Shown here: positions 49,785-64,000 of the stretch, piece by piece
Layout: each line of letters starts with the position of its first letter
How positions within the stretch are numbered: the stretch's first letter is position 1
NCBI RefSeq assembly: GCF_006716345.1
Contig: NZ_VFOX01000002.1
Span: 248,001-312,000, forward strand
Direction of reading: 5' to 3'
Source of the DNA: Microbacterium saperdae
Lineage (GTDB): Bacteria; Actinomycetota; Actinomycetes; Actinomycetales; Microbacteriaceae
Length of the DNA: 64,000 nucleotides
Made by a program: the position numbers and the translations under genes
Notes under the pieces: generated by a model
What the model saw: only the letters and a program-made list of their open reading frames with translations
The model's database searches: none
Told to the model about the DNA's origin: nothing

Positions 49785-51476
49785 ATGCGTACATATCTGA
49801 AGCGTGCCCTCTGGGGGACGCTCATCGCCGGCGGGATCACCCTGCTCGGCGCGACGGCCGCGAATGCGGCCGAGACATCCGGCGAGGACGGACTCCTCTC
49901 CGGCACCCAGGCAGTGGCACCGGTCTCCGCACCGCTCACCGTCGTCGGCAACGCGATCTCGGTGCTCGGCACCTCGACCGCCCCGGCTCCGGCCCCAGCC
50001 CCGGCACCGGCCCCTGCCCCGGCACCGGCACCGGCACCCGCCCCTGCACCGGTGACGAGCGGCGAATCCGGCACCGCCTCCGGCACTCAGGCCGCGGTGA
50101 CCGTCACCGTTCCCGTCACCGTGACGGGCAACGCGGTGAGCCTTCTCGGCACCTCTTCGACCAGCACTCCGACCGCGGTTTCCCAGAGTGAGGCTCCCCA
50201 GGCCCAGACTCCCGCGGCCGGGGTGCCTTCCCTCACGACCAACGGCATCGACGGCGTGCTCTCGGGCACGCAGGCGCTGCTGCAGGTCGATGTGCCGGTG
50301 ACCGTCACCGGCAACTCGGTGTCGCTGCTCGGCACCAGTGGTACCAACGCCCCGGCAGGGCAGGGAGCCGCAGCACCGGCCTCCCCCGCCCCGAGCGAGG
50401 CCGCCACGGATGGATCGGATGGCGTCGGCAGCGGAACCCAGGTCGTCGCTCCGATCACCGCACCGGTGACGGTCGGCGGCAACGCGATCTCGATCCTCGG
50501 CGACAGCAGCGTCACCGCGAACCCGAGAGCATCCGCACCCACACCCGCATCGACGCCGGCTCCGTCCGGCGGCACCTCGGGCGATGATTCGCTCCTGGGC
50601 GGAAGCCAGGTTACGGCTCCCATCGCCGCTCCGATCACGCTGGTCGGCAACGCGATCACCGTCGGCGGCACCAGCGCCGTGTCAGGACCTGCTCCGGCGA
50701 CACCCGCCCCGGCGGGCCCGGTCGGGAACGCCCCGGCAGCTCCGGCGACGTCCGGCGAGAACGGCGTCGGAGGCGGCACCCAGGTGATCGCCCCCGTCAC
50801 GGCTCCCGTCGCCATCGGCGGCAATGCGATCGGCGTCCTCGGTGACAGCAGTGTCTCCGGTGGCGCGGGCACGCCCGCACCGGCATCCACGCCCGGCACT
50901 CCTGCCGAGACGTCAGGTGACGATGCGATCCTCGGTGGCACGCAGGTGATCGCGCCGGTCAGCGCACCGGTCTCAGTCGTCGGCAACGCAATCGGGGTGC
51001 TCGGTGACAGCACTGTCACCGGAGGTGCAGGCGCCGCGCCGGCACCGACCGCTCCCCTCACGGGAGGCGGCCTCACCACCGGTCTGGACTCGATCCTCGG
51101 CGGCACGCAGCTGGCGCTCCCGGTCACCCTGCCGATCACGATCGGCGGCAACGCCATCGCGGTCGCCGGCGAGAGCACGGTCACCACGCCGGGGACGACG
51201 CCGGGAACCGACCCCGGCACTGACCCCGGAACCGACCCGGGCACCGATCCCGGCACTGACCCGGGAACCGACCCCGGAACCGATCCGGGAACCGACCCGG
51301 GAACCGACCCCGACGCCCTCGTCGGAGCGGGTACGGCATCCGGTGCGGCCACGGCCGCGGCAGCGGAGGGCCTCGCCATGACCGGCGGCGCTCCTGCGCC
51401 GGGCGTGCTCGTGATCGGAGTGCTGCTGCTCCTCGGTGGTCTCGCCCTCCTGCGTCGTCGCACGATGACGGCGTAG
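49785..51476 (+). CDS. Chaplin-like eight-repeat surface protein with LAMTG sortase signal
   Basis: The protein has 563 residues from the ATG with AGGAG upstream. The signal peptide is LIAGGITLLGATAANA. Eight units of about 35 residues follow, each of the form SGxxxxLGGTQVxAPVxAPVxxxGNAIxVLGxS, which matches the chaplin domain core (Asn-Gly turn, Gly-Asn-x-Val/Ile) but without its Cys pair. Linkers are Pro/Ala rich, including a long (PA)n run near residue 70, and a TDPG repeat (about nine units) comes before the end. The C-terminus has LAMTG, a hydrophobic helix and RRR, the class E sortase signal. It should be wall-anchored and may coat the surface. Confidence 0.78.
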   Translation: MRTYLKRALWGTLIAGGITLLGATAANAAETSGEDGLLSGTQAVAPVSAPLTVVGNAISVLGTSTAPAPAPAPAPAPAPAPAPAPAPAPVTSGESGTASGTQAAVTVTVPVTVTGNAVSLLGTSSTSTPTAVSQSEAPQAQTPAAGVPSLTTNGIDGVLSGTQALLQVDVPVTVTGNSVSLLGTSGTNAPAGQGAAAPASPAPSEAATDGSDGVGSGTQVVAPITAPVTVGGNAISILGDSSVTANPRASAPTPASTPAPSGGTSGDDSLLGGSQVTAPIAAPITLVGNAITVGGTSAVSGPAPATPAPAGPVGNAPAAPATSGENGVGGGTQVIAPVTAPVAIGGNAIGVLGDSSVSGGAGTPAPASTPGTPAETSGDDAILGGTQVIAPVSAPVSVVGNAIGVLGDSTVTGGAGAAPAPTAPLTGGGLTTGLDSILGGTQLALPVTLPITIGGNAIAVAGESTVTTPGTTPGTDPGTDPGTDPGTDPGTDPGTDPGTDPGTDPGTDPDALVGAGTASGAATAAAAEGLAMTGGAPAPGVLVIGVLLLLGGLALLRRRTMTA

Positions 51477-53658: not shown

Positions 53659-54654
53659 TCAGCCGGCGATCACCTCTGCCACCGTGCGTCCAGCCAACGC
53701 CGGTATGCCGAGACCCGTGAGGCGGATGCCATCGGCTTCCAGTCCCGCGGGAATCCAGTCCTCTCCGAACAGCACGGCCGCCGCGGCGCCGGCCAACGCA
53801 GGGAGAGACGCGGCGTTGCGCGGCTGAGCGAGTGCTCCGAGCAGCAGGTCGTCAGCGCTCCGCGCCGTCGCCACGTGGGCGAGCAGGAAACCGAACGTCT
53901 CGGGAGCCGCGATCGGGTAGCTGTAGACCCAGTCCCCCACCTGCGTGCTCAGGCGTCGCGCACGATCCAGGGGGCCCGTCGCGTCGGCCGCGACGTGCAT
54001 CGAGGTGTCGGCCATCCGGCGGCTCCAGGTGTTCTCGGGGAGTTGCGTCACAGCGAGGTGCACGGCGTCGGCCGCGGACGCGCCGTCGACCAGTGCGCCG
54101 AACAGCGCCGCGCTGGCCCTCGCGCACCACAGGCCGTCGAGGGAGTGGGTGACGGCAGCGTCGGCGTGCGCGGCATCGACCGCTCCGCCTGATCCGTGCA
54201 CGGCGACCGCCGCGATGGCGCGCACGGTGGCGATGTCATCGAAGTAGTGCGCGTTGTCGTGCCCTGACTGCGGGGGCTCGGCGCCGCCTCGCAGATTCTG
54301 CAGCGCGAGCTTGGTGCCGATGCGGGCACGCAACCCGCCGGCGGGGTCGGCCTCGAGCTCGGCGAGCTCACGCCACTCGCTCAAACCCAGCTCCCGCGCA
54401 TGCTGCCGAGCGGAGAACGCGAACCACTCGACGTTCTCTCCCGCTCCGGGATGCAGGGTGCGAGGCGGCGCCGCATGGGTGAACGGGCGCGGCACCGTGG
54501 TGGTGCGGTCGTCGTCACCGAGCTTCGACAGGATGCGCACCCTGTTGACGCGCTTGGGCGGGAGTGCATACACGCGGAAGTCGGCGTTCATCGACGACGC
54601 GGACTCGCCGGCGACGATGCCCCGGGTGAACAGATCGATCAGGGGGGTGGTCAT
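53659..54654 (-). CDS. ADP-ribosylglycohydrolase-fold protein 4, active site degenerate
   Basis: The protein has 331 residues from the ATG that overlaps the upstream stop by four bases. All-helical layout, position and tail similarity place it with its three upstream paralogues. However, the usual motifs are missing: no GDAxG near the N-terminus (GIVAGESASSMNAD instead) and no DxDT near residue 290 (ALAQPRNAASLPALAGAAAAVLFG instead). The first part also has a distinct stretch RVYALPPKRVNRVRILSKLGDDDRT. I infer loss of metal-dependent hydrolysis or a changed chemistry. It is the last gene of the operon. Confidence 0.6.
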   Translation of the reverse strand: MTTPLIDLFTRGIVAGESASSMNADFRVYALPPKRVNRVRILSKLGDDDRTTTVPRPFTHAAPPRTLHPGAGENVEWFAFSARQHARELGLSEWRELAELEADPAGGLRARIGTKLALQNLRGGAEPPQSGHDNAHYFDDIATVRAIAAVAVHGSGGAVDAAHADAAVTHSLDGLWCARASAALFGALVDGASAADAVHLAVTQLPENTWSRRMADTSMHVAADATGPLDRARRLSTQVGDWVYSYPIAAPETFGFLLAHVATARSADDLLLGALAQPRNAASLPALAGAAAAVLFGEDWIPAGLEADGIRLTGLGIPALAGRTVAEVIAG

Positions 54655-55646
54655 GCGCGCGCCTCCTCGACGATACGGGTCAGGGTGTCGGCGGCATCCA
54701 GCGGATGGATCCCGGCCATGGAACGGATGCACGACCCCACGACGGGGCGCAGTCCCGCCACCCATTCCTCGGGCAGATCGCCGATGCCGGAGATCGCACC
54801 GCCGATGCAGCCGGCGATCGCTGCGGTGGTGTCGGCGTCGCGCCCCATGTTGACGGCGAACAGGATGCTCTCGGCCGCTCGGCCGTCCGCGTGCAGCACC
54901 GATGCCATGGCGAGGCCCACCGCCTCGGGAGCGAGATCGGCCCAGAAGTAGTCCGCCACGGCCAGGCGATCGTGCAATGCGAGCGCGAGCGCGTCGTCAT
55001 CGAGTCCGGAGTGCACCAGATCGCGGGCGTCGCGAAGGTTGCGGGCCGTCCAGCTGTCGGCAGGGATCGCCGCGAGCCCCGCGTCGTAGCAGGCGGCGGC
55101 ATCCGCCCCGGTGAGAGCAGTGGTCACGGCGACGGCGACCACCACGCCGGCCCAGATGCCCTCGGTCGTGTGGCTCACGGCGCCGTCGGCTTCAGCCAGG
55201 CGACGGGCGAGCTCGACATCGCCGTCCGCGACGATGCCGAGCGGGCTGACCCGCATCGCGAGCCCGTCGCTCCAGCCGTGCATCGTGTCACCGCTCAGCG
55301 GGGGGCGGATGCCGCGACGCAGGTTGTCGATCGCCGCCATCTCGCTGAATCCCCCACCCTTGAAGTCGTCGGCCTGCGGGAGCACGTCCTCGATCCAGGT
55401 CTGTGCGAAGTCCTCAGCCGTGGCCCCGACGCCCACGCGCTGGACGGTCTTGGCGGTCAGCAGGGCGTATTCGGTGTCATCGCTGCCGGCGGGCTCCGGG
55501 TCGAGATATCCGGTCACCCGCCCGTGCGCGGCCTGGATCTCTGCGGCGGAGAACCCTTCGACCGGCCGCCCGATCGCATCGCCGATGGCGAGCCCGGCCA
55601 GCGAACCGCGCGCGCGGTCCTTCAGGGTCGGCGTGGGAGAAGTCAT
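54651..55646 (-). CDS. ADP-ribosylglycohydrolase-family protein 3
   Basis: The protein has 331 residues from the ATG at 55646 (AAGGA box); an ATG two codons earlier is less well placed. The family motifs are complete: GLAIGDAIGRPVEG near 15-28, SDDTEYALL near 53 (acidic metal site), and NMGRDADTTAAIAGCIGGAISG near 270 (DxDT site). These bind the two Mg ions that attack the N- or O-glycosidic bond of ADP-ribose. It probably acts on a small imported riboside; see operon context. Confidence 0.85.
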   Translation of the reverse strand: MTSPTPTLKDRARGSLAGLAIGDAIGRPVEGFSAAEIQAAHGRVTGYLDPEPAGSDDTEYALLTAKTVQRVGVGATAEDFAQTWIEDVLPQADDFKGGGFSEMAAIDNLRRGIRPPLSGDTMHGWSDGLAMRVSPLGIVADGDVELARRLAEADGAVSHTTEGIWAGVVVAVAVTTALTGADAAACYDAGLAAIPADSWTARNLRDARDLVHSGLDDDALALALHDRLAVADYFWADLAPEAVGLAMASVLHADGRAAESILFAVNMGRDADTTAAIAGCIGGAISGIGDLPEEWVAGLRPVVGSCIRSMAGIHPLDAADTLTRIVEEARA

Positions 55647-55667
55647 GAACATCCTTGTCTGTCGGGG

Positions 55668-57017
55668 TCAGCGGGTGGGGAGCAGGGCGAGCGTGCGATG
55701 GGCGAGCGCGTCGATCTCGACCCCGTCGAGCCCGGGCAGGCTCGTCGCGATGCGGTTCTGCAGCGGATCGATGAAGTGCGCGGGCAGGCCGTCGATGCCG
55801 GCGAGTCCGCCCAGGACCGAACCGACGGTGGCACCCGCCGAGTCGGTGTCCCACCCCGTGATCACGGCGAGTGGCACTCCCCGTGTGAACTCGCCGCCGC
55901 TGCGGGCGAGCGCGAAGGCGATCAGCGCCGCGTTGTTGATCGTGTGCACCCAGTGCAGGTGTCCGTACGCGGCGTGCAGAGCGTCGATCGCGGCGGAGTC
56001 GTCGAGCTCGCCCCGCCCGAGCGCCACGCCGAAGTCGATGGCCTCCCGCAGTTCGCTGCCCGCGGGCACCGCAGTGGAGGCGAGGTCGAGCACCTCGTCG
56101 ACGGATGCCGCGACGAGTGAGGCCGAGGTGAGCGCTGCCGCCCACATCGCTCCCCAGAGCCCGTTGCGGGTATGGCTGAGGCGGGCATCCGTCCAGGCCA
56201 TACGGGCGGCCTCGGCGATGTCGCCCGGGTTGATCCACCCGTAGACGTCGGTGCGGATGAGCGCGCCGATCCACTCGCGGAACGGATTGCGCACGCGGGC
56301 CGCCTCATCCGGACGGTAGCCGTCGAGGAGGTTGCGGTACGCGATGCGCTCTGCCGTGAAAGTGCGGCCGGCGGGCAGATCGGCCAACCACGCCTGGGCG
56401 ATGTCGTCGGTGGTGAAGCCGCGGCCGGCGGTCTCGAGCACCCGAAGGTTGAGCAACGGGTAGTTGAGATCGTCGTCCTCGGGCATCCCGGCGATGTTCT
56501 CGATCAGGGAGTTGACGGCCGAGCGCCGGTTCCACGGCCAGCGGCGCGCGACATCGTCCGGGAGGCCCTGCGCGGTGAAGTAGTCCGTGAGCGGCCAACG
56601 ACCCGTCGCCCGGAGGATCTCCTCGATACCCGCGCGCGGGATCTTCTCGACGGGCTTGCCCCACAGGCATCCCGCCGAACGTCCGGCCCATGCGCCGTGG
56701 ATGCGGCCACGGAGCGCGGCGTCAGCCGGCGTCGCGATCGGTGCGGGCATACCGGTGAGCACCGCCCGCACCTCATCCCACGTCGTCGCCTCGGACTCCG
56801 CGGACACGACCTCGTCGATCTCGACCAGCAGCGCACGGGCCAGCGTCCGGAGGCCGTCGGGTGCCGCCTCCGCCGTCGCCCCGCCACGCACCGGGTCGAG
56901 CGCGCCGCCCGCCGCAGTCCAGCGGGCGACGATCGCCTCGACGTCCTTCCCTTCCGCGCGCGCCTGCACCAGCTCATGCGGCAGCAGGTCCTCCGGCTGC
57001 GCCCAGGTCAGGCGCAT
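55668..57017 (-). CDS. ADP-ribosylglycohydrolase-family protein 2 with N-terminal extension
   Basis: The 449-residue protein has about 100 extra residues before the family domain. Motifs are altered but present: GAWAGRSAGCLWGKPVEKI near 108-126, GMPEDDDLNYPLLN near 180, and GWDTDSAGATVGSVLGGLAG near 390. The Trp-rich first motif places it in a divergent branch. The ATG at 57017 overlaps the upstream stop (TGATG); a GTG just before it is possible. Confidence 0.8.
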   Translation of the reverse strand: MRLTWAQPEDLLPHELVQARAEGKDVEAIVARWTAAGGALDPVRGGATAEAAPDGLRTLARALLVEIDEVVSAESEATTWDEVRAVLTGMPAPIATPADAALRGRIHGAWAGRSAGCLWGKPVEKIPRAGIEEILRATGRWPLTDYFTAQGLPDDVARRWPWNRRSAVNSLIENIAGMPEDDDLNYPLLNLRVLETAGRGFTTDDIAQAWLADLPAGRTFTAERIAYRNLLDGYRPDEAARVRNPFREWIGALIRTDVYGWINPGDIAEAARMAWTDARLSHTRNGLWGAMWAAALTSASLVAASVDEVLDLASTAVPAGSELREAIDFGVALGRGELDDSAAIDALHAAYGHLHWVHTINNAALIAFALARSGGEFTRGVPLAVITGWDTDSAGATVGSVLGGLAGIDGLPAHFIDPLQNRIATSLPGLDGVEIDALAHRTLALLPTR

Positions 57018-58165
57018 CACGCCTCCCGGAGCGACGCTACGCGACGCAGGTCGGCCTCGGCACGAGCCGCGTCCTTCTGCATGACATCCACCGCGACGCC
57101 CGACAACAGCGCCGCGTACTCGTCGAAGTCGACCCTGCTGGCCGTCGCGATGGCGTCGAGGATGTCCGAGGGGATCACGGCCTGACCGCCGATGCCCGCG
57201 GCCAGGCTTCCGGCCATCGACGCGATGGAGTCGGAGTCGCGACCGTAGTTCACTGCACCGAGCACGGTGGGGAGGAACGCGCCGTCATGCGCGACGAGGA
57301 AGCCGAGCGCGACGGGCAGCTCCTCGATCGACTTGGTCCGAGACGGCACCCGCGCGTCCATGAGCGGCTCGCGATAGGCGTCTCCCACGGTGTCGAAGGG
57401 ACGGATGGCGTCGCGCAGAGCCCGCCCGATCTGCTCCTCGTCGGCGCCGGGGGCCAGCCCTCGGGCCGCATCGACGACCGCCCGGATGGCTGCCGCCGTG
57501 CCGTCGTGGGCGACGCGCAGCGCGGCGTCGATCACCGAGTCGACCGTGGCGTCGAGAGCGACGGATGCCGCGACCGCAGCCGCGAACACCCCCGCGGCCT
57601 CCCGCCCGTAGCTCGACTGGTGGGCGCCAGCGACGTCGATCGCCTCGGCGTAGGCCGCTTCGGGGTTACCGGCGTTGACGATGCCGACCGGGGCCATGTA
57701 CATCGCTGCACCGCAGTTGACGACGTTCCCGACGCCGGCCTCGCGCGGGTCGACATGGCCGTACTGCAGACGGGTGACCAGCCACTTCTCGGCGAGGAAG
57801 ATGCGCTGCAGCAGGATCGATTCGCGCTCCAGCTCCGGGATCCACCGGATCTCGGTCTGCAGCAGCGGCACGAGCAGCTCGGCGACGGCGAACGCATCGA
57901 TGTGGTCTCGCCGCTCCGCGTACACCCGGATCAGAGCCTGCGTCATCAGGGTGTCATCCGTGATGTGCCCATCACCCTTGTGGTACGGACTGACCGGTCG
58001 AGCGGTCTGCCAGTCCAGGTGGTACGGCGGGACGATGCCCGTGATCGGGCCCCCGTACCGTTCCTTGATCTTCTCCGGACTGAAGCCTTCGGCCGCCCCG
58101 CCCAGGGCGTCGCCGATGGCCGACCCCGCGAGCACGGCCGCCGTGCGTTCCCGAATCCAGCTCAT
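57017..58165 (-). CDS. ADP-ribosylglycohydrolase-family protein 1
   Basis: The 382-residue protein starts at ATG with GAGG. Full motifs are visible: AGSAIGDALGGAAEGFSP near 14-30, GHITDDTLMTQAL near 66-78, and NYGRDSDSIASMAGSLAAGIGG near 315-336, with DSDS replacing the usual DTDT. It is the first of four consecutive paralogues and follows the sugar-binding lipoprotein gene. The substrate is unknown. Family members cleave ADP-ribose from protein or small molecules, but the linked sugar importer argues for an extracellular glycoside. Confidence 0.85.
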   Translation of the reverse strand: MSWIRERTAAVLAGSAIGDALGGAAEGFSPEKIKERYGGPITGIVPPYHLDWQTARPVSPYHKGDGHITDDTLMTQALIRVYAERRDHIDAFAVAELLVPLLQTEIRWIPELERESILLQRIFLAEKWLVTRLQYGHVDPREAGVGNVVNCGAAMYMAPVGIVNAGNPEAAYAEAIDVAGAHQSSYGREAAGVFAAAVAASVALDATVDSVIDAALRVAHDGTAAAIRAVVDAARGLAPGADEEQIGRALRDAIRPFDTVGDAYREPLMDARVPSRTKSIEELPVALGFLVAHDGAFLPTVLGAVNYGRDSDSIASMAGSLAAGIGGQAVIPSDILDAIATASRVDFDEYAALLSGVAVDVMQKDAARAEADLRRVASLREA

Positions 58166-58216
58166 GCCATTCCTCTCTTATAGGTGGGGCGGATGCGCGC
58201 ATCCGCCCCACCGTCG

Positions 58217-59509
58217 TCAACCGTTGACCTGTGCCCAGCCGTCATCGAGCTCGGACGCCAGGCCCTTGTCGTCGATCTCTCCGCCCAGGAACTTCTGGAA
58301 CGCGGGAGTCGCGACGGTGTCCTTCCAGCGCACGAATCCGTTCGCCTGCAGGAAGGCCGGTCCGTCGAGGCCCTCTGCCGACTGCACGATCTCGGGCCAC
58401 CCGTTCTGGTCGGCCGTCTGTTCGGCGAGCGCCTCGCGTGCCGAGATCGTCGTGGGGATGAGTCCGTCGGCGATGTTCATCTTCACGAGGTTGTCGGTCT
58501 GCATGAAGTAGTCGAGGAACTTCGCGGCCTGCTTCTGGTACGGCGAGTCGATGTTGATCGACAGCGTCTGCGGGTTGGCGGCCTGCACCGCGCCCTCGGA
58601 TCCGGCGAGCGGCGGCAGCACGATCCAGTCCATGTCGGCCGGGGCGTCCGTGGCGATGTTCGCCACCTGGTACGAACCCTGCACGGTCATGGCGGCCTTG
58701 CCGGCGTAGAACGTCGCCAACACGTCGGAGCCCGACTGCGTGACCCCGATCGGGTCGACAGAGCCGTCCTCGATCATCGACCGCACGCGGTTCGGCACCT
58801 CGAGGTCGGCATCCTTCACGTCGACCTTCATGTCTTCGCCCTCGCCGGTGAAGTACTCGGAACCGAAGCCCATGCCGAGGCTCATGAACGCCGCGGTCGG
58901 GCTCTTCAGTCCCCAGGTGATGCCGTGGACGTCGCCGGACGTCGTGGCCTTCGCGATCTCGTCGAGTTCATCCCAGGTCATGGAATCCCCGGTGGGGATA
59001 TCGACGCCGGCTGCCTCGAGCAGCGTCTTGTTCGCGAACACGACGTACGTCTGCAGCTCCGTCGGGGCGCCGATCATCTGGTCGTCCACGGTGACCGAGG
59101 CCAGCACACCCGGGTCGATGTCGTCGATGGTCTCCTTGCTGAGCAGTTCGCTCAGGTCGGCCACGTAGCCGTCGCGGGCGAAGGGCACGATGCCGAGAAC
59201 CTCGTAGTGGATGATGTCGGGCGCGACTTCGCCGGCGAACTGCGTCGTCAGCTTGTCGTCCAGGCTGTCGGTCGGCGCCTGCACGATGTCGACCTGGATA
59301 TCGGGGTTGTCCTCGTTCCAGGCGTCGACGATCTCCTTGGTCGCTTCGATCGCGGCCGGCTGGTCGGAGAAGGACTGGAAGGTGATCGATACCGGCTCGC
59401 CGTCGCCGGCGTCGTCGGTCGTGTCGCCGCCCGCGGAGCAGGACGCGAGGGTCAGCGCCGTCACCGCGGCTGCGGCGAGCGCGATGGACGCGCGATGAAG
59501 CTTCTTCAC
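58217..59509 (-). CDS. Sugar ABC transporter substrate-binding lipoprotein
   Basis: This 430-residue family 1 binding protein has a signal ending LASC (Cys near 24). The body includes EIVDAWNEDNPDIQVDIVQAPT, TELQTYVVFANKTLLEAAGVD and the TVQGSYQVANIA segment near 260. It is encoded between the permeases and the ADP-ribosylglycohydrolase array, all on one strand. No ATPase is in the operon, so a shared one is expected. Confidence 0.92.
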   Translation of the reverse strand: MKKLHRASIALAAAAVTALTLASCSAGGDTTDDAGDGEPVSITFQSFSDQPAAIEATKEIVDAWNEDNPDIQVDIVQAPTDSLDDKLTTQFAGEVAPDIIHYEVLGIVPFARDGYVADLSELLSKETIDDIDPGVLASVTVDDQMIGAPTELQTYVVFANKTLLEAAGVDIPTGDSMTWDELDEIAKATTSGDVHGITWGLKSPTAAFMSLGMGFGSEYFTGEGEDMKVDVKDADLEVPNRVRSMIEDGSVDPIGVTQSGSDVLATFYAGKAAMTVQGSYQVANIATDAPADMDWIVLPPLAGSEGAVQAANPQTLSINIDSPYQKQAAKFLDYFMQTDNLVKMNIADGLIPTTISAREALAEQTADQNGWPEIVQSAEGLDGPAFLQANGFVRWKDTVATPAFQKFLGGEIDDKGLASELDDGWAQVNG

Positions 59510-59557
59510 TTCATACCTCTTTCTCTCTGTGATGGGAATTGCGGGAAGTCTGTACGT

Positions 59558-60466
59558 TCAGCCCTTGACCGCTCCGGAGAGCAGGCCGGTGGCGAGTCGC
59601 TTCTGCAGCAGCGTGAAGAAGACGATGCTCGGGATGCTCGACAGCAGCGCACCGGCGGCGAGCGGCCCGACCGCCACCTTCCCCTCACCTCCGACGAACG
59701 TGCTGAGCGCGATGGGAAGGGTGTAGTTCTCCGGCGACTGCAGCAGCACCAGGGCGAAGAAGAACTCGTTGTACGCCGAGACGAAGCTGAACATCGCGGT
59801 CGCCACGAGCCCGGGCATCAGCAGCGGGAACACGACCCGCTGCAGCGTGCGCGCCTTGTTGGCCCCGTCGATCGACGCCGCCTCCTCGATGTCATACGGG
59901 ATCGCGGCGACATAGCCCTGCAGCATCCACAGGGAGAACGGCAGGGTGTAGACGGAGTACACCGCGACGAGCCCGAGCAGAGAGTCGACCAAGCCGACCG
60001 AGCGCAGGATGAAGAACAACGGGATGACGATCAGGATCACCGGGAAGATCTGACTCACCAGGATGTAGCCCACCCCGATCGAGCGGAGCTTTCCCTGGTA
60101 CCGCGCCATGACGTAGGCACCGGGGATCGACAGCAGGGTGACGATGATCGTCGTGGCGACGGCGACGAGAAGGCTGTTGCCCGCCGCGCGTACGAGGCCC
60201 TGCCGTTCCAGTGCCACCACGAAGTTGTCGATCGTGGGCTGCAGCGGGAAGAGGTTGACCGCGAGGGAGTTGATCTCGGCCGAGGACTTGAAGGCGGTCG
60301 AGATCAGCCACAGCAGCGGGAAGCCGAGGAAGATCAGGAAGCCCGCGAGCGCCACGTACTGCAGGATGCGGACCAGCGGCTTCTTCGTGCGCTGATTCAT
60401 CTTCCTGCGCTGCCGCTTCGGCGCGTTCTGCGTGACCATCGTCCGGGTCGCCGTGCTCTGGTTCAT
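59558..60466 (-). CDS. Sugar ABC transporter permease, MalG type
   Basis: The protein has 302 residues from the ATG at 60466, which overlaps the first permease stop by four bases. The N-terminus is basic, followed by about six helices. The EAA loop is EEAASIDGANKARTLQRVVFPLL near 212-234, and SFVSAYNEFFFALVLLQSP near 245 is typical of CUT1. It pairs with the next listed permease. Confidence 0.92.
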   Translation of the reverse strand: MNQSTATRTMVTQNAPKRQRRKMNQRTKKPLVRILQYVALAGFLIFLGFPLLWLISTAFKSSAEINSLAVNLFPLQPTIDNFVVALERQGLVRAAGNSLLVAVATTIIVTLLSIPGAYVMARYQGKLRSIGVGYILVSQIFPVILIVIPLFFILRSVGLVDSLLGLVAVYSVYTLPFSLWMLQGYVAAIPYDIEEAASIDGANKARTLQRVVFPLLMPGLVATAMFSFVSAYNEFFFALVLLQSPENYTLPIALSTFVGGEGKVAVGPLAAGALLSSIPSIVFFTLLQKRLATGLLSGAVKG

Positions 60467-61404
60467 CGGGGGCTCCTCTCCGGACGCAGCTGGCGCCACA
60501 GGGCGATCACCAGGATGACGATGAGGAAGATCACGATGACATCCCCCATCGCCGCCGCACCGCCGGTGTTACGGGACTTGAAGGCCTCGAGGTACGTGAA
60601 GAGCATCGGCAGCATCGTGCGGCCTCCGGGACCGCCCTCGGTCATGACGTAGACGATGCCGAAAGAGTTGAAGTTCCAGATGAAGCTGAGGCTGGCGATC
60701 GAGAAGATCACGGGCCGCAGGGCCGGCAGCGTGACGCTGACGAAGCGGCGCCAGGTGCTCGCGCCGTCGACCGCAGCGGCCTCGAGGAGCTCGCCGGGCA
60801 CCTGCTGCAGACCAGCCAGCAGCACCACGGTGTTCTGCGGCATTCCGACCCAGACGCCGACGAGGATGACGGCGGGGAGGGCCAGGCCGAAGTCGCCGAG
60901 CCAGTTGATGTTCTCCGGCCCTCCGAGCGATTCGATGAGCCAGTTCAGCGGGCCGTTGGTCGGCGAGTAGATCATCTGCCACATCACGGCGACGACGACG
61001 GGCGGCATCGCCCACGGGATGAGCGCGAGAACGCGGGTGATTCCGCGGAAGCGCAGATCCGTGTTGAGCAGCAGCGCGAGCGACAGCCCGCCGATCAGCT
61101 GCAGCGCGGTGACGGTGACGGCCCAGATCATGCCGATGCCGAACGACTGCCAGAACTGCGTGTCGGAGCCGAGCTTGATGAAGTTCTCGAACCCGATGAA
61201 CTGCGTCTCGTGGTGCCGGGCGAGGCGGGAATCGGTGAACGCCGTCGCAACACCGATGAACAGCGGGATCACGCTGAGCGCCAAGATGGGGATCAGAGTC
61301 GGGATGACGAGACCGAGCGCCTCGTTGCGACGCGAACGGGCGAGGCCGCCCGGCTTGGGCGTGACCCCCTTCGCGGTGGTGTTCTTCACGGCAGTCGTGC
61401 TCAT
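60463..61404 (-). CDS. Sugar ABC transporter permease, MalF type
   Basis: The protein has 313 residues from the ATG that overlaps the LacI stop by four bases. The frame is open well upstream but that part lies in the LacI gene. It has about six helices, and the EAA loop is EAAAVDGASTWRRFVSVTLPAL near 205-226. The TEGGPGGRTMLPMLFTYLEAF loop is usual for MalF-like proteins. Confidence 0.92.
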   Translation of the reverse strand: MSTTAVKNTTAKGVTPKPGGLARSRRNEALGLVIPTLIPILALSVIPLFIGVATAFTDSRLARHHETQFIGFENFIKLGSDTQFWQSFGIGMIWAVTVTALQLIGGLSLALLLNTDLRFRGITRVLALIPWAMPPVVVAVMWQMIYSPTNGPLNWLIESLGGPENINWLGDFGLALPAVILVGVWVGMPQNTVVLLAGLQQVPGELLEAAAVDGASTWRRFVSVTLPALRPVIFSIASLSFIWNFNSFGIVYVMTEGGPGGRTMLPMLFTYLEAFKSRNTGGAAAMGDVIVIFLIVILVIALWRQLRPERSPR

Positions 61405-62423
61405 GCGGATTCCCCGATCGTCGACGCACGGATCACGAGCGTGGCCTCGACCGTCTCCCGCCGCGTGGGACGCGACGGATCGGCGAAGCGCTCGCTGAGC
61501 ATGCGCGCCGCGATCCGTCCCCGTCGCTCCGACTGGAGGGAGACCGATGTCAACGGCGGGCTGTAGAGCGCAGCCAGGTCGGTGTCGTCGATGCCCGTCA
61601 CGGCGATGTCCTCCGGAACGCGCAGACCCTGTCGTCGGATCGCGTTGATGGCGCCGATCGCGATCAGGTCGTTCGCGCACACGATCGCGTCAATCGGTTC
61701 GCCGGTCTCTCTCTTCGCGGCGAGCAGGCGTTCTGCGGCATCCACTCCTGCGCCGACCGTGAAGTCGGTCGCGGTGATCTGCAGGGCGTCGGTACGCACC
61801 AGACCATGCCGCTCCACGGCGGCGGCGAAGCCGGCACGACGCGCCGCACCCGGGTTGGTGTTGCCCGGGCCGTTGATCACGCCGATGCGCGCGCGCCCGA
61901 TGTCGACCAGGTGGTCGACCACCATTCCGACCGCGACCGCCGAGTCGACGAACACGCTGTCGATGCTCAGCTCCGAGTGCAGGGTGCCGATGACCACGAC
62001 GGGCACGACCGTGTCGGCGAGCGCCTGTCGAAGAGCGGGAGTCACGCGCAACGGCGAGATGATCAGCCCGTCACCGGCGCCCATGCTGAGCATGCGCACG
62101 AGCTCCACCGTCTGGTCAGGGCGACGGCCGGTCGCCGAGACGCTGATGCGCGTCGTCTCTCCCAGCTCCTCCTCGATCGCGCGCAGCATCTGCACGTAGT
62201 TCGGGTTGCCGATGTCGTCCACCGCGAAGACGACCTGGGGATGACCGCCCAGCCGTAGCGAACGGGCCGTGGCGTCGGGCAGGTAGCCGATGCGCTTGGC
62301 CGCCATGCGCACCTTGCGCACCATCTCCGGGCTTGCGGAGCGACCGGTGAGCGCACGCGATGCGGACGCCAGCGAGACGCCGGCCGCAGCGGCGACCTCG
62401 TGCAGAGTCGGCTTCGTCCCCAT
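61401..62423 (-). CDS. LacI-family regulator of glycohydrolase operon
   Basis: The 340-residue protein has the LacI helix-turn-helix at 5-26 (LHEVAAAAGVSLASASRALT), a hinge helix, and a ligand domain (VVDHLVDIGRARIGVINGPG, VTGIDDTDLAALYSPPLTSV). It is the first gene of the eight-gene minus-strand operon and should bind the two GGAAACGTTTCC palindromes just upstream. Recognition-helix residues fit the CG-centred operator class. GAGGAG precedes the ATG. Confidence 0.92.
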   Translation of the reverse strand: MGTKPTLHEVAAAAGVSLASASRALTGRSASPEMVRKVRMAAKRIGYLPDATARSLRLGGHPQVVFAVDDIGNPNYVQMLRAIEEELGETTRISVSATGRRPDQTVELVRMLSMGAGDGLIISPLRVTPALRQALADTVVPVVVIGTLHSELSIDSVFVDSAVAVGMVVDHLVDIGRARIGVINGPGNTNPGAARRAGFAAAVERHGLVRTDALQITATDFTVGAGVDAAERLLAAKRETGEPIDAIVCANDLIAIGAINAIRRQGLRVPEDIAVTGIDDTDLAALYSPPLTSVSLQSERRGRIAARMLSERFADPSRPTRRETVEATLVIRASTIGESA

Positions 62424-62440: not shown

Positions 62441-62478
62441 GGAAACGTTTCCATCACGCGATTTGGAAACGTTTCCAA
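62441..62478 (-). promoter_or_regulatory. Two LacI operators
   Basis: GGAAACGTTTCC occurs at 62441-62452 and again at 62465-62476, where it extends to a 16-base palindrome (62463-62478). Centres are 24 bases apart. Both lie downstream of the predicted start of transcription, so repression by blockage is likely. Confidence 0.88.
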
Positions 62479-62502: not shown

Positions 62503-62531
62503 AATCTAGGCGGACTCCCGTCGGGTGTCAA
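62503..62531 (-). promoter_or_regulatory. Strong sigma70-type promoter of glycohydrolase operon
   Basis: On the minus strand TTGACA (62531-62526) and TAGATT (62508-62503) are 17 bases apart, close to the consensus for the housekeeping sigma factor. The -35 box overlaps the stop codon of the preceding CitE-like gene. The operators follow about 25 bases downstream. Confidence 0.82.
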
Positions 62532-63331
62532 GACCTCGGTTCGACCGACCTCAGGATCTGCTCGGCGCGCCCCCGCATCGCCGGGTCGACCATCTCCCCC
62601 GACGAGAGCGTCGCGACCCCTCCCCCCCGCAGCGTGGAGACGACCTCCTGCGCCCAGGCCACATCGGCTTCGCTCGGGGCGAAGACCGCAGCGATCACCG
62701 CGAGCTGCCGCGGATGCGCGGCCATGCGGCCGTACAGACCGAGATCGGCCGCGCGGCGGGTGTCATCAGCAAGCCCTTCGAGATCACGGATCGCGGGATA
62801 CACCGATGCCATGGGTGCCGGCAGCCCGGCGGCGCGCGCCGCGAACAGCATCGAGAGTCGCGCATGGGTGATCGCCGGCTCACCTCCCCCGACCTCGCTG
62901 CGCAGATCGCTCTCCCCGAGCGCGAGCGCGAGCACGGCCGGATGCTCGGCGATCGCGACAGCGTTGATCACCCCTCGAGCGGACTCGAGCAGAGCGACGA
63001 GCGGTCGCCCCGGCGCGAGCGCGACCGCCCGGTCGAGATCGTCGACGCTCTCGACCTTCGGCAGTCGGATGCCCACGTCGGGAGCGAGTGCCGACACGGC
63101 CCGCAGATCTCCCTCGTCGCCCGCATTCACGCGCACCTGCACCGCGGCACTCCCCCGCTGTCCGTCGCGCAGCCACTGGACCACGGCGTCACGCGCTGCC
63201 GACTTGCGCTCCGGAGCCACGGCATCCTCGAGGTCGAACACCACGAGATCCGCGCCGCTCTCCTCCGCCGACCGGAAGCGATCGGGCCGGTCTCCCGGCA
63301 CGTAGAGGCCCGTGCGGTAGTGGGCGGTCAT
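62528..63331 (-). CDS. CitE-like CoA-ester lyase (HpcH/HpaI superfamily)
   Basis: The 267-residue protein contains GLYVPGDRPDRFRSAEESGADLVVFDLEDAVAPERK (residues 7-42, with the Arg and acidic metal site), VRVNAGDEGDL near 70, and LLESARGVINAVAIAEHP near 115 with the metal-binding Glu. CitE-like stand-alone lyases act on malyl-, citramalyl- or similar CoA esters. Its ATG overlaps the stop of the CoA-transferase gene (TGATG), so CoA activation followed by C-C cleavage is the likely pathway. Confidence 0.88.
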   Translation of the reverse strand: MTAHYRTGLYVPGDRPDRFRSAEESGADLVVFDLEDAVAPERKSAARDAVVQWLRDGQRGSAAVQVRVNAGDEGDLRAVSALAPDVGIRLPKVESVDDLDRAVALAPGRPLVALLESARGVINAVAIAEHPAVLALALGESDLRSEVGGGEPAITHARLSMLFAARAAGLPAPMASVYPAIRDLEGLADDTRRAADLGLYGRMAAHPRQLAVIAAVFAPSEADVAWAQEVVSTLRGGGVATLSSGEMVDPAMRGRAEQILRSVEPRS

Positions 63332-64000
63332 CACACCGCTCCCGCACTGCGGAGGTCGGCGATCTCGGCATCCGAGAATCCGGCGCCGCGGAGAACCTCG
63401 TCCGTGTCGGCACCGTGACCTCGCCCGGCCCACCGGATCGATCCGGGCGTGCGCGACAGACGGAACAGCACGTTCTGCATCGCGATGTCGCCGAGGTCTT
63501 CGTCTTCGACGCGCACGACCGTGCCCAGAGCGCGGTACTGCGGATCCTCGACCACACCGCGCACGTCGTAGACCGGAGCGATGGCAGCGGATGCCGCCTC
63601 GAACACCGCGACGACCTCGTCGGCATCGTGGGCGCCGATCCAGGACTGCACCGCGTCGTCGAGTTCATCCGCATGCAGCGCCCGCTCATGGCCGGAACGG
63701 AACCAGGGCTCTTCGATCAGCTCGCCGCGGCCGACCACGGTCATCACGCGCTCGGCGATGGACTGCGAGCTGGTCGACACCGCCAGCCACACGCCGTCGC
63801 GTGACCGGTAGACGTTGCGCGGAGCATTGTTGACGGAGCGGTTGCCGGTACGGGGCTGCACCATGCCGAGCTGATCCCACGCGGTGATCTGCCCGCCCAG
63901 CAGCATCAGGATCGGCTCGATGATCGCCATGTCGACGACCTGCCCGTGGCCGTCGCGCTCGGCGGTTCGCAGTGCGGCCATGACGGCATAGGCCGTCGCG
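63331..64000 (-). CDS. Class III CoA-transferase (CaiB/BaiF), N-terminus beyond window
   Basis: The frame enters from the window end with AYAVMAALRTAERDGHGQVVDMAIIEPILMLLG, the family III signature (GxGQxVDxxLLE type). It continues with GNRSVNNAPRNVYRSRDGVWLAVSTSSQSIAERVM and the C-terminal small-domain motif PVYDVRGVVEDPQYRALGTVV. About the C-terminal half of a 400-residue protein is present; the catalytic Asp lies outside. It transfers CoA between carboxylic acids and is coupled to the CitE-like gene. Confidence 0.9.
   Translation of the reverse strand, partial: ATAYAVMAALRTAERDGHGQVVDMAIIEPILMLLGGQITAWDQLGMVQPRTGNRSVNNAPRNVYRSRDGVWLAVSTSSQSIAERVMTVVGRGELIEEPWFRSGHERALHADELDDAVQSWIGAHDADEVVAVFEAASAAIAPVYDVRGVVEDPQYRALGTVVRVEDEDLGDIAMQNVLFRLSRTPGSIRWAGRGHGADTDEVLRGAGFSDAEIADLRSAGAV

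Follow-up and report, generated by a model that had tools for sequence, protein, structure and literature searches.

Proteins of the ADP-ribosylglycohydrolase (ARH) family, PF03747, have been studied as erasers of ADP-ribosylation. The ribose-utilisation (rus) locus of Bacteroides also contains an ADP-ribosylglycohydrolase gene, together with ribokinases and nucleoside hydrolases; to our knowledge this locus has no CUT1 importer, no CaiB/CitE genes and no four-gene ARH array. In this study we focus on an operon of Microbacterium saperdae in which four consecutive PF03747 genes (g1 to g4) follow the genes of a sugar importer. It lies in a stretch of 64,000 nucleotides, hereafter the window (contig NZ_VFOX01000002.1, positions 248,001 to 312,000; coordinates below are those of the window), and this kind of operon resembles the rus locus in that ARH-fold and ribose-kinase genes neighbour each other in a locus for nutrient use. 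We think, with moderate confidence, that it belongs to a conserved type of catabolic operon that imports and dismantles an acid-bearing furanoside. The gene set is widespread and apparently undescribed: a search of the open-access literature, in which not every match was examined, found no description of this operon.

The genes are all on the minus strand, and both the open reading frame calls and Pfam agree with an earlier note, made from the sequence alone, which had listed a regulator, two permeases, a binding lipoprotein and four ADP-ribosylglycohydrolase-fold genes tightly packed on one strand. The LacI-family regulator (340 residues, 61401..62423; PF00356 1.8e-07, PF13377 2.3e-37) has RbsR as its top NCBIfam model, at 168 bits and under the cut-off of 382. 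It is followed by permease 1 (P1; 313 residues, 60463..61404; PF00528 4e-23) and permease 2 (P2; 302 residues, 59558..60466; PF00528 6.5e-20) of an ATP-binding cassette (ABC) importer, and by a solute-binding lipoprotein (SBP; 430 residues, 58217..59509; PF01547 7e-35) in which a LASC lipobox is seen by eye. With two permeases of PF00528 and a binding protein of family 1, this is a CUT1-type sugar ABC importer; the solved chains nearest to the SBP are generic sugar-binding proteins and do not indicate its ligand. The array is composed of g1 (382 residues, 57017..58165; PF03747 9.4e-44), g2 (449 residues from ATG, about 100 of them additional residues at the N-terminus, 55668..57017; PF03747 1.1e-43), g3 (331 residues, 54651..55646; PF03747 2.1e-52) and g4 (331 residues, 53659..54654; PF03747 2.5e-13). 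The metal site is full in g1 and g3 and kept in g2, while g4 is a degenerate ARH-fold protein whose metal ligands are lost. Genes overlap by 4 bp at LacI/P1, P1/P2 and g3/g4 and by 1 bp at g1/g2, and are separated by 48 bp (P2-SBP), 51 bp (SBP-g1) and 21 bp (g2-g3). Directly upstream of the LacI gene lie a CitE/HpcH-type C-C lyase (267 residues, 62528..63331; PF03328 4.5e-32) and a CaiB-type coenzyme A (CoA)-transferase (63331..64000; PF02515 4.2e-42), which is cut by the window edge and extends beyond it. The window part of CaiB reaches 145 bits against a PF02515 cut-off of 23.3 and belongs to family III; the full protein has 386 residues in the genome gene call (locus L196) and matches the CaiB of a type-B operon at 67%. 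In relatives CaiB and CitE are found inside the operon.

Loci with g1 relatives were taken from the 80 top-scoring of at least 571 relatives and from genus and class samples, with genes called by a home-made script that overlooked the L024 g4 and kinase genes, recovered in a later check. Merging loci with identical last 250 residues of g1 reduced 113 loci to 104 distinct ones; the palindrome, context and g4 counts given below exclude the short-stretch loci L160-L195. A conserved actinobacterial layout emerges, LacI-importer-g1-g2-ribokinase-(Y or g3+g4)-CaiB-CitE, where Y is a single protein described below. Its dominant order, LacI-P1-P2-SBP-g1-g2-RbsK-Y-CaiB-CitE, occurs at 39 loci, and 11 more end with an esterase (both counts before de-duplication). 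Streptomyces-type loci have the order g3-g4-g1-g2-RbsK-CaiB-CitE, whereas the form seen in the window has CaiB-CitE immediately ahead of LacI and places the kinase, if any, after g4. Median overlaps of 4 bases join g1/g2, g2/RbsK, RbsK/Y, Y/CaiB, CaiB/CitE and g3/g4. In a class-wide sample g1 (E <=1e-50) was detected in 55 of 345 genomes and 12 of 126 genera; within the genus PF03747 occurs in 54 of 149 genomes, and the intact LacI-P1-P2-SBP-g1-g2-g3-g4 order in 10 of the 149, the window genome included, so that the arrangement is not due to chance. Another 11 genus genomes have g1-g2 only, in the Y-type operon form. The neighbourhood survey that the earlier note had proposed thus finds its four-gene order, as one of two forms of a wider operon, and the array that it had called unusual is real without being unique, since it recurs in these genomes and, with g3-g4 ahead of g1-g2, in Streptomyces-type loci.

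Some loci depart from these orders. L024 (genome G005) has a shuffled g1-g3-g4-kinase-g2' arrangement, where g2' is closer to the g2 of type-C loci than to that of the window, and L034 (G091) holds a fragmented operon copy in a genome that is 68% complete though in one contig, where assembly errors are likely. In the Streptomyces-type loci L145, L153, L159, L207, L209 and L215, proteins of about 1500 and 243 residues encoded on the opposite strand adjoin g3.

A plainer explanation would be salvage of ribonucleosides or of NAD/ADP-ribose, in which the ARH-fold proteins would free ribose from N- or O-ribosides resembling nucleosides, with CaiB and CitE as chance or loosely linked neighbours. It would account for stand-alone g3+g4 pairs (L042:5997-11145 and L043) that adjoin an adenosine deaminase, two inosine-uridine nucleoside hydrolases and a phosphorylase-family gene, neighbours which, from the L042 genes tested, suggest a nucleoside-linked role for the pair at these loci. 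It would also fit the type-C clusters L051-L053, where a g2-like ARH gene is found with an inosine-uridine nucleoside hydrolase, a sugar importer and a PfkB kinase, with no CaiB or CitE. These clusters also encode a protein of 561-613 residues with a weak carbohydrate-binding domain match. Against salvage, g1, g2 and CaiB form a single block at 88 of the 104 distinct loci, CaiB having a median overlap of 4 bp to CitE and to Y, and a nucleoside pathway requires neither a CoA lyase nor an esterase. We therefore consider salvage rather unlikely and retain the acid-bearing furanoside as the preferred candidate for the substrate.

The 88 loci where a single block holds g1, g2 and CaiB (the 16 others, without g2 or CaiB in the same block, were excluded from this count) divide almost completely between two forms: 65 have Y alone and 21 have g3+g4 alone. 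The remaining two are L210, with both, and L212, counted as neither although it holds a g3, beside a stretch without a called gene that falls between g3 and g1. By source, the 80 top-scoring of at least 571 relatives contribute 52 Y and 6 g3+g4 loci, the genus and class samples 13 Y, 14 g3+g4, 1 with both and 1 with neither, and the window itself is of the g3+g4 form. On a tree of g1 (87 rows, unrooted and partly long-branched) the g3+g4 form occupies two well-separated places, a Streptomyces-type group and a Microbacterium group nested among Y forms, and the distribution of Y and g3+g4 takes 3 changes on it, where shuffled labels average 19.9. A single-origin swap was rejected, as one change does not suffice on the g1 tree; one swap that was later reversed still fits the unrooted tree. 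Such alternation is what would be expected if both modules do the same job, and g3+g4 looks like one functional unit replaced elsewhere by Y.

Y has about 650 residues, of which Pfam leaves the first 490 uncovered by any family. The model of one Y protein, from Amycolatopsis (L090), contains a GH129/GH13-like barrel and an EgtB/FGE-like domain; identity to GH129/GH13 proteins is 10-16% in the listed matches of the structure search, and the added EgtB/FGE-like domain sets Y apart from GH129/GH13 glycosidases. Y is absent from the window. Since Y alternates with g3+g4 and is modelled with a glycosidase-like barrel, g3+g4 probably performs a glycosidase-type step.

All four window proteins pass the PF03747 cut-off of 26.2 bits (g1 150.6, g2 150.4, g3 179 and g4 50.8, the g4 match being restricted to profile positions 95-286), and they are the only four PF03747 matches in the whole genome. 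Their mutual identity of 25-29% over alignments of at least 100 residues marks them as divergent, old paralogues. The flap Glu, (S/T)DD and DxD(S/T), which we take to be the metal-ligand motifs of ARH/DraG hydrolases, are retained in orthologues of g1 (103-104 of 104), g2 (98-99 of 100, with EDD at the (S/T)DD position) and g3 (28-29 of 29). Hence g1, g2 and g3 have the ligands of a catalytically competent ARH/DraG hydrolase, and g4 does not.

The fold is that of ARH3, whose hydrolysis requires Asp77/Asp78 according to PMC5552275, and g1-g3 carry metal ligands of the same kind, which could suggest that the four proteins are protein de-ADP-ribosylases of the DraG/ARH1/ARH3 type unrelated to the importer. 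The scores argue otherwise, being at best 62.5 bits against 337 for the DraG equivalog (TIGR02662) and 44.5 against 490 for Tri1 (NF041672), as does the fixed position of the genes in a catabolic operon. Protein de-ADP-ribosylation as a shared role was set aside on this operon context and these low equivalog scores, and we regard it as highly improbable. Thus the array has its fold, and g1-g3 their ligand motifs, in common with DraG, ARH1, ARH3 and MJ1187, from which it differs by its place in a sugar-importer operon, by scores far below the DraG and Tri1 cut-offs and by a member without ligands.

In every group that member, g4, is without the flap Glu and the first Asp of the final motif. In window-type g4 the flap Glu and the DxD pair are kept in 0 of 11 proteins and SDD is changed to G-(E/D)-(N/A) in all 11, while other g4 keep SDD in 14 of 15 and lack the first Asp of DxD. 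With its ligand positions replaced in this way, and a model of moderate confidence (pLDDT 76) that is weakest around residues 22-70, g4 might be taken for a functionless decaying duplicate. We find this very unlikely. The ratio of nonsynonymous to synonymous substitution rates (dN/dS) for the eight closest pairs is 0.058-0.127 in g4, against 0.088-0.187 in g2 (a ninth pair, L025, gives 0.303), and an HDN...DD pocket motif is retained in 25 of 25 aligned g4. The model keeps the ARH fold, with human ARH1 as its best solved match (E 6.9e-4). Moreover, a g3-like gene is found immediately upstream and on the same strand for all 36 distinct g4-like genes, including pairs outside the operon; conversely g4 follows 36 of 43 g3-like genes, and of the seven exceptions L024 is a gene-calling error and L158 lies at a contig edge. 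The g4 of the window, devoid of metal ligands but under purifying selection, thus probably serves g3 as a partner, either non-catalytic or re-purposed. The idea that the paralogues handle successive bonds or variants, put forward in the earlier note, is not supported in that form, given a g4 without metal ligands that always follows g3 and the alternation of the pair with Y. In L198-L203, g3+g4 pairs adjoin LacI, importer and ribokinase genes.

The other enzymes give indications on the substrate. RbsK of the relatives is a PfkB kinase whose nearest solved chains are ribokinases and which keeps the GGKGANQA motif; the L036 protein scores 235.1 bits against the TIGR02152 ribokinase cut-off of 299.65. 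In the window genome, ribokinase-like genes lie elsewhere, five at 41-48% identity and four weaker ones. CaiB resembles a CoA-transferase of the succinyl-CoA type, its nearest solved protein being human succinate-hydroxymethylglutarate CoA-transferase, and the solved proteins nearest to CitE are an acyl-CoA lyase beta chain and Rv2498c, which cleaves (S)-citramalyl-CoA and (R)-HMG-CoA with a site made of Arg64, Glu112 and Asp138 (PMC6689899). The corresponding R67, E116 and D142 of CitE are conserved in 91 of 91 CitE, where the Glu and Asp equivalences come from the alignment and the Arg was placed through the RxNAG motif. For PF03328, sequence alone is described as unreliable for substrate assignment (PMC6689899), and CitE reaches about 141 bits against 375 for the RipC equivalog NF038242. 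A CoA-transferase followed by a lyase points to an organic-acid part of the substrate, and as the operon shows no hydratase gene, this acid is expected to be a beta-hydroxy acid from the start.

An esterase-labelled gene is present in 17 distinct loci, and 0 of the 21 g3+g4-only loci have one in the block. Of two that were tested, the first is of secreted type and feruloyl-esterase-like, with a CylK-like second part, and the second, from a Nocardioides, lies inside the operon between Y and CaiB. At L210 the esterase gene is in the opposite orientation with an operator palindrome upstream. In several genera the operon ends with secreted feruloyl-esterase-like proteins, which together with the sub-threshold score of the kinase could point to another cis-diol furanose, such as the apiose of acylated plant glycosides, the PfkB kinase acting on that sugar or its ketose. 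This appears unlikely to us given the ribokinases nearest to the kinase and its conserved GGKGANQA, and the gene calls, in which most flanking frames are unannotated, show neither an isomerase nor an apiose-type gene in the operon. We retain ribose as the most likely sugar.

A promoter-like box, TTGACA-17-TAGATT (62503..62531, minus strand), is the consensus-like element behind the earlier note's strong promoter; with 1 found and 0.5 expected it is weak evidence alone. Between this box and LacI are two copies of the perfect 12-base palindrome GGAAACGTTTCC, at 62465..62476 and 62441..62452, with no further exact copy in the 4.3 Mb genome, 3 one-mismatch sites, and 0 matches to a reversed control pattern. 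Of 89 LacI genes, 55 are preceded by an AACGTT-core palindrome (35/64 Y, 17/20 g3+g4 and 3/5 other), against 1 of 17 esterase genes and none of the 864 genes examined from eleven further families of the operon. Because arbitrary 12-base palindromes are present in 42 of 195 background regions, the signal is the AACGTT core and not palindromy. Upstream of CaiB the AACGTT-core operator was sought in 93 regions and found in none.

Taken together, these observations are consistent with the following scheme. LacI would repress from the two GGAAACGTTTCC sites until, presumably, the substrate or one of its breakdown products releases it. The lipoprotein and the two permeases would import the glycoside; no ATPase gene is present in the operon, the rest of the genome not having been searched for one, so a shared ATPase is assumed. 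Inside the cell the imported conjugate would be attacked by g1, g2 and g3 as Mg-dependent furanosidases, g3 and its partner g4 together taking the step that Y may carry out in most relatives. The freed pentose, most likely ribose, would be phosphorylated by the ribokinase encoded in the operon of most relatives, and in the window genome probably by one of the ribokinase-like genes elsewhere. The freed hydroxy acid is likely of citramalate, malate or 3-hydroxy-3-methylglutarate type, and is probably released by an esterase in some relatives; CaiB would make its CoA thioester and CitE would split this into acetyl-CoA and a keto acid. The proposal of the earlier note, import and hydrolysis of a riboside or N-glycoside, is backed by the ribokinase and Y of the relatives as far as an importer-linked catabolic role on a riboside-like or other glycoside is concerned; it had overlooked CitE and CaiB, and with them the organic-acid part, as well as the lost metal site of g4. 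A fuller version appears possible rather than probable to us: a widespread, undescribed pathway of actinobacteria that handles acid-acylated or acid-capped furanosides. ARH-fold proteins would here have turned into genuine glycosidases; the ARH pair (catalytic g3 and metal-less g4 with HDN...DD) and the unrelated Y would do the same chemistry, having replaced each other more than once, and CaiB-CitE would burn an acid of citramalate or (R)-3-hydroxy-3-methylglutarate type.

Several points weigh against this scheme. What the sequences show directly is the gene set and its conservation, the operators, the alternation of Y with g3+g4 and the ligand residues; the substrate, the enzyme activities and the g3-g4 partnership are deduced. 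RbsK, CaiB and CitE fall below the NCBIfam equivalog cut-offs, so their exact substrates are only candidates, and with no ribokinase gene in the window operon and matches elsewhere, supply in trans is only inferred. Y and g3+g4 stand together in L210. The AACGTT-core palindrome is absent at 34 of 89 LacI genes, and in the window the operators come after CaiB-CitE, with none in front of CaiB itself, so that co-regulation of this pair is at most a possibility there. Finally, most loci are the best-scoring 80 of at least 571, which favours close relatives and is not a random sample.

Elsewhere in the window, at 49785-51476 on the plus strand, is the gene of a secreted protein of 563 residues built of repeats, with four stretches of chaplin-type domains (PF03777), DPGT repeats and then a C-terminal membrane anchor; orthologues at 58-65% are present in several relatives.

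An importer operon with two to four PF03747 genes, g1 of which is found in 55 of 345 genomes, implies that many members of this family may serve nutrient acquisition as furanosidases. As g3+g4 and Y alternate, their function can be tested by swapping them; g4 would be a case of a degenerate enzyme retained as an obligate partner, and if the acid reading is true, CoA-transferase/lyase pairs would be linked to glycoside breakdown. Among described systems, the Bifidobacterium RbsR, RbsR2 and RbsR3 regulons have in common with this operon a LacI-family regulator, a ribokinase, ribose or nucleoside use and an AACGTT-core operator (PMC4746261). They differ by nucleoside hydrolases in place of the ARH-fold genes, and in the main text of PMC4746261 the terms 'ADP-ribosylglyco' and 'CoA-transferase' occur 0 times. 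The itaconate (Rip) pathway, Rv2498c and human SUGCT/CLYBL share with it the succession of a CoA-transferase and a PF03328 C-C lyase (PMC6689899, PMC12460153), whereas in the operon described here this pair comes without a visible hydratase gene and is tied to putative glycosidases.

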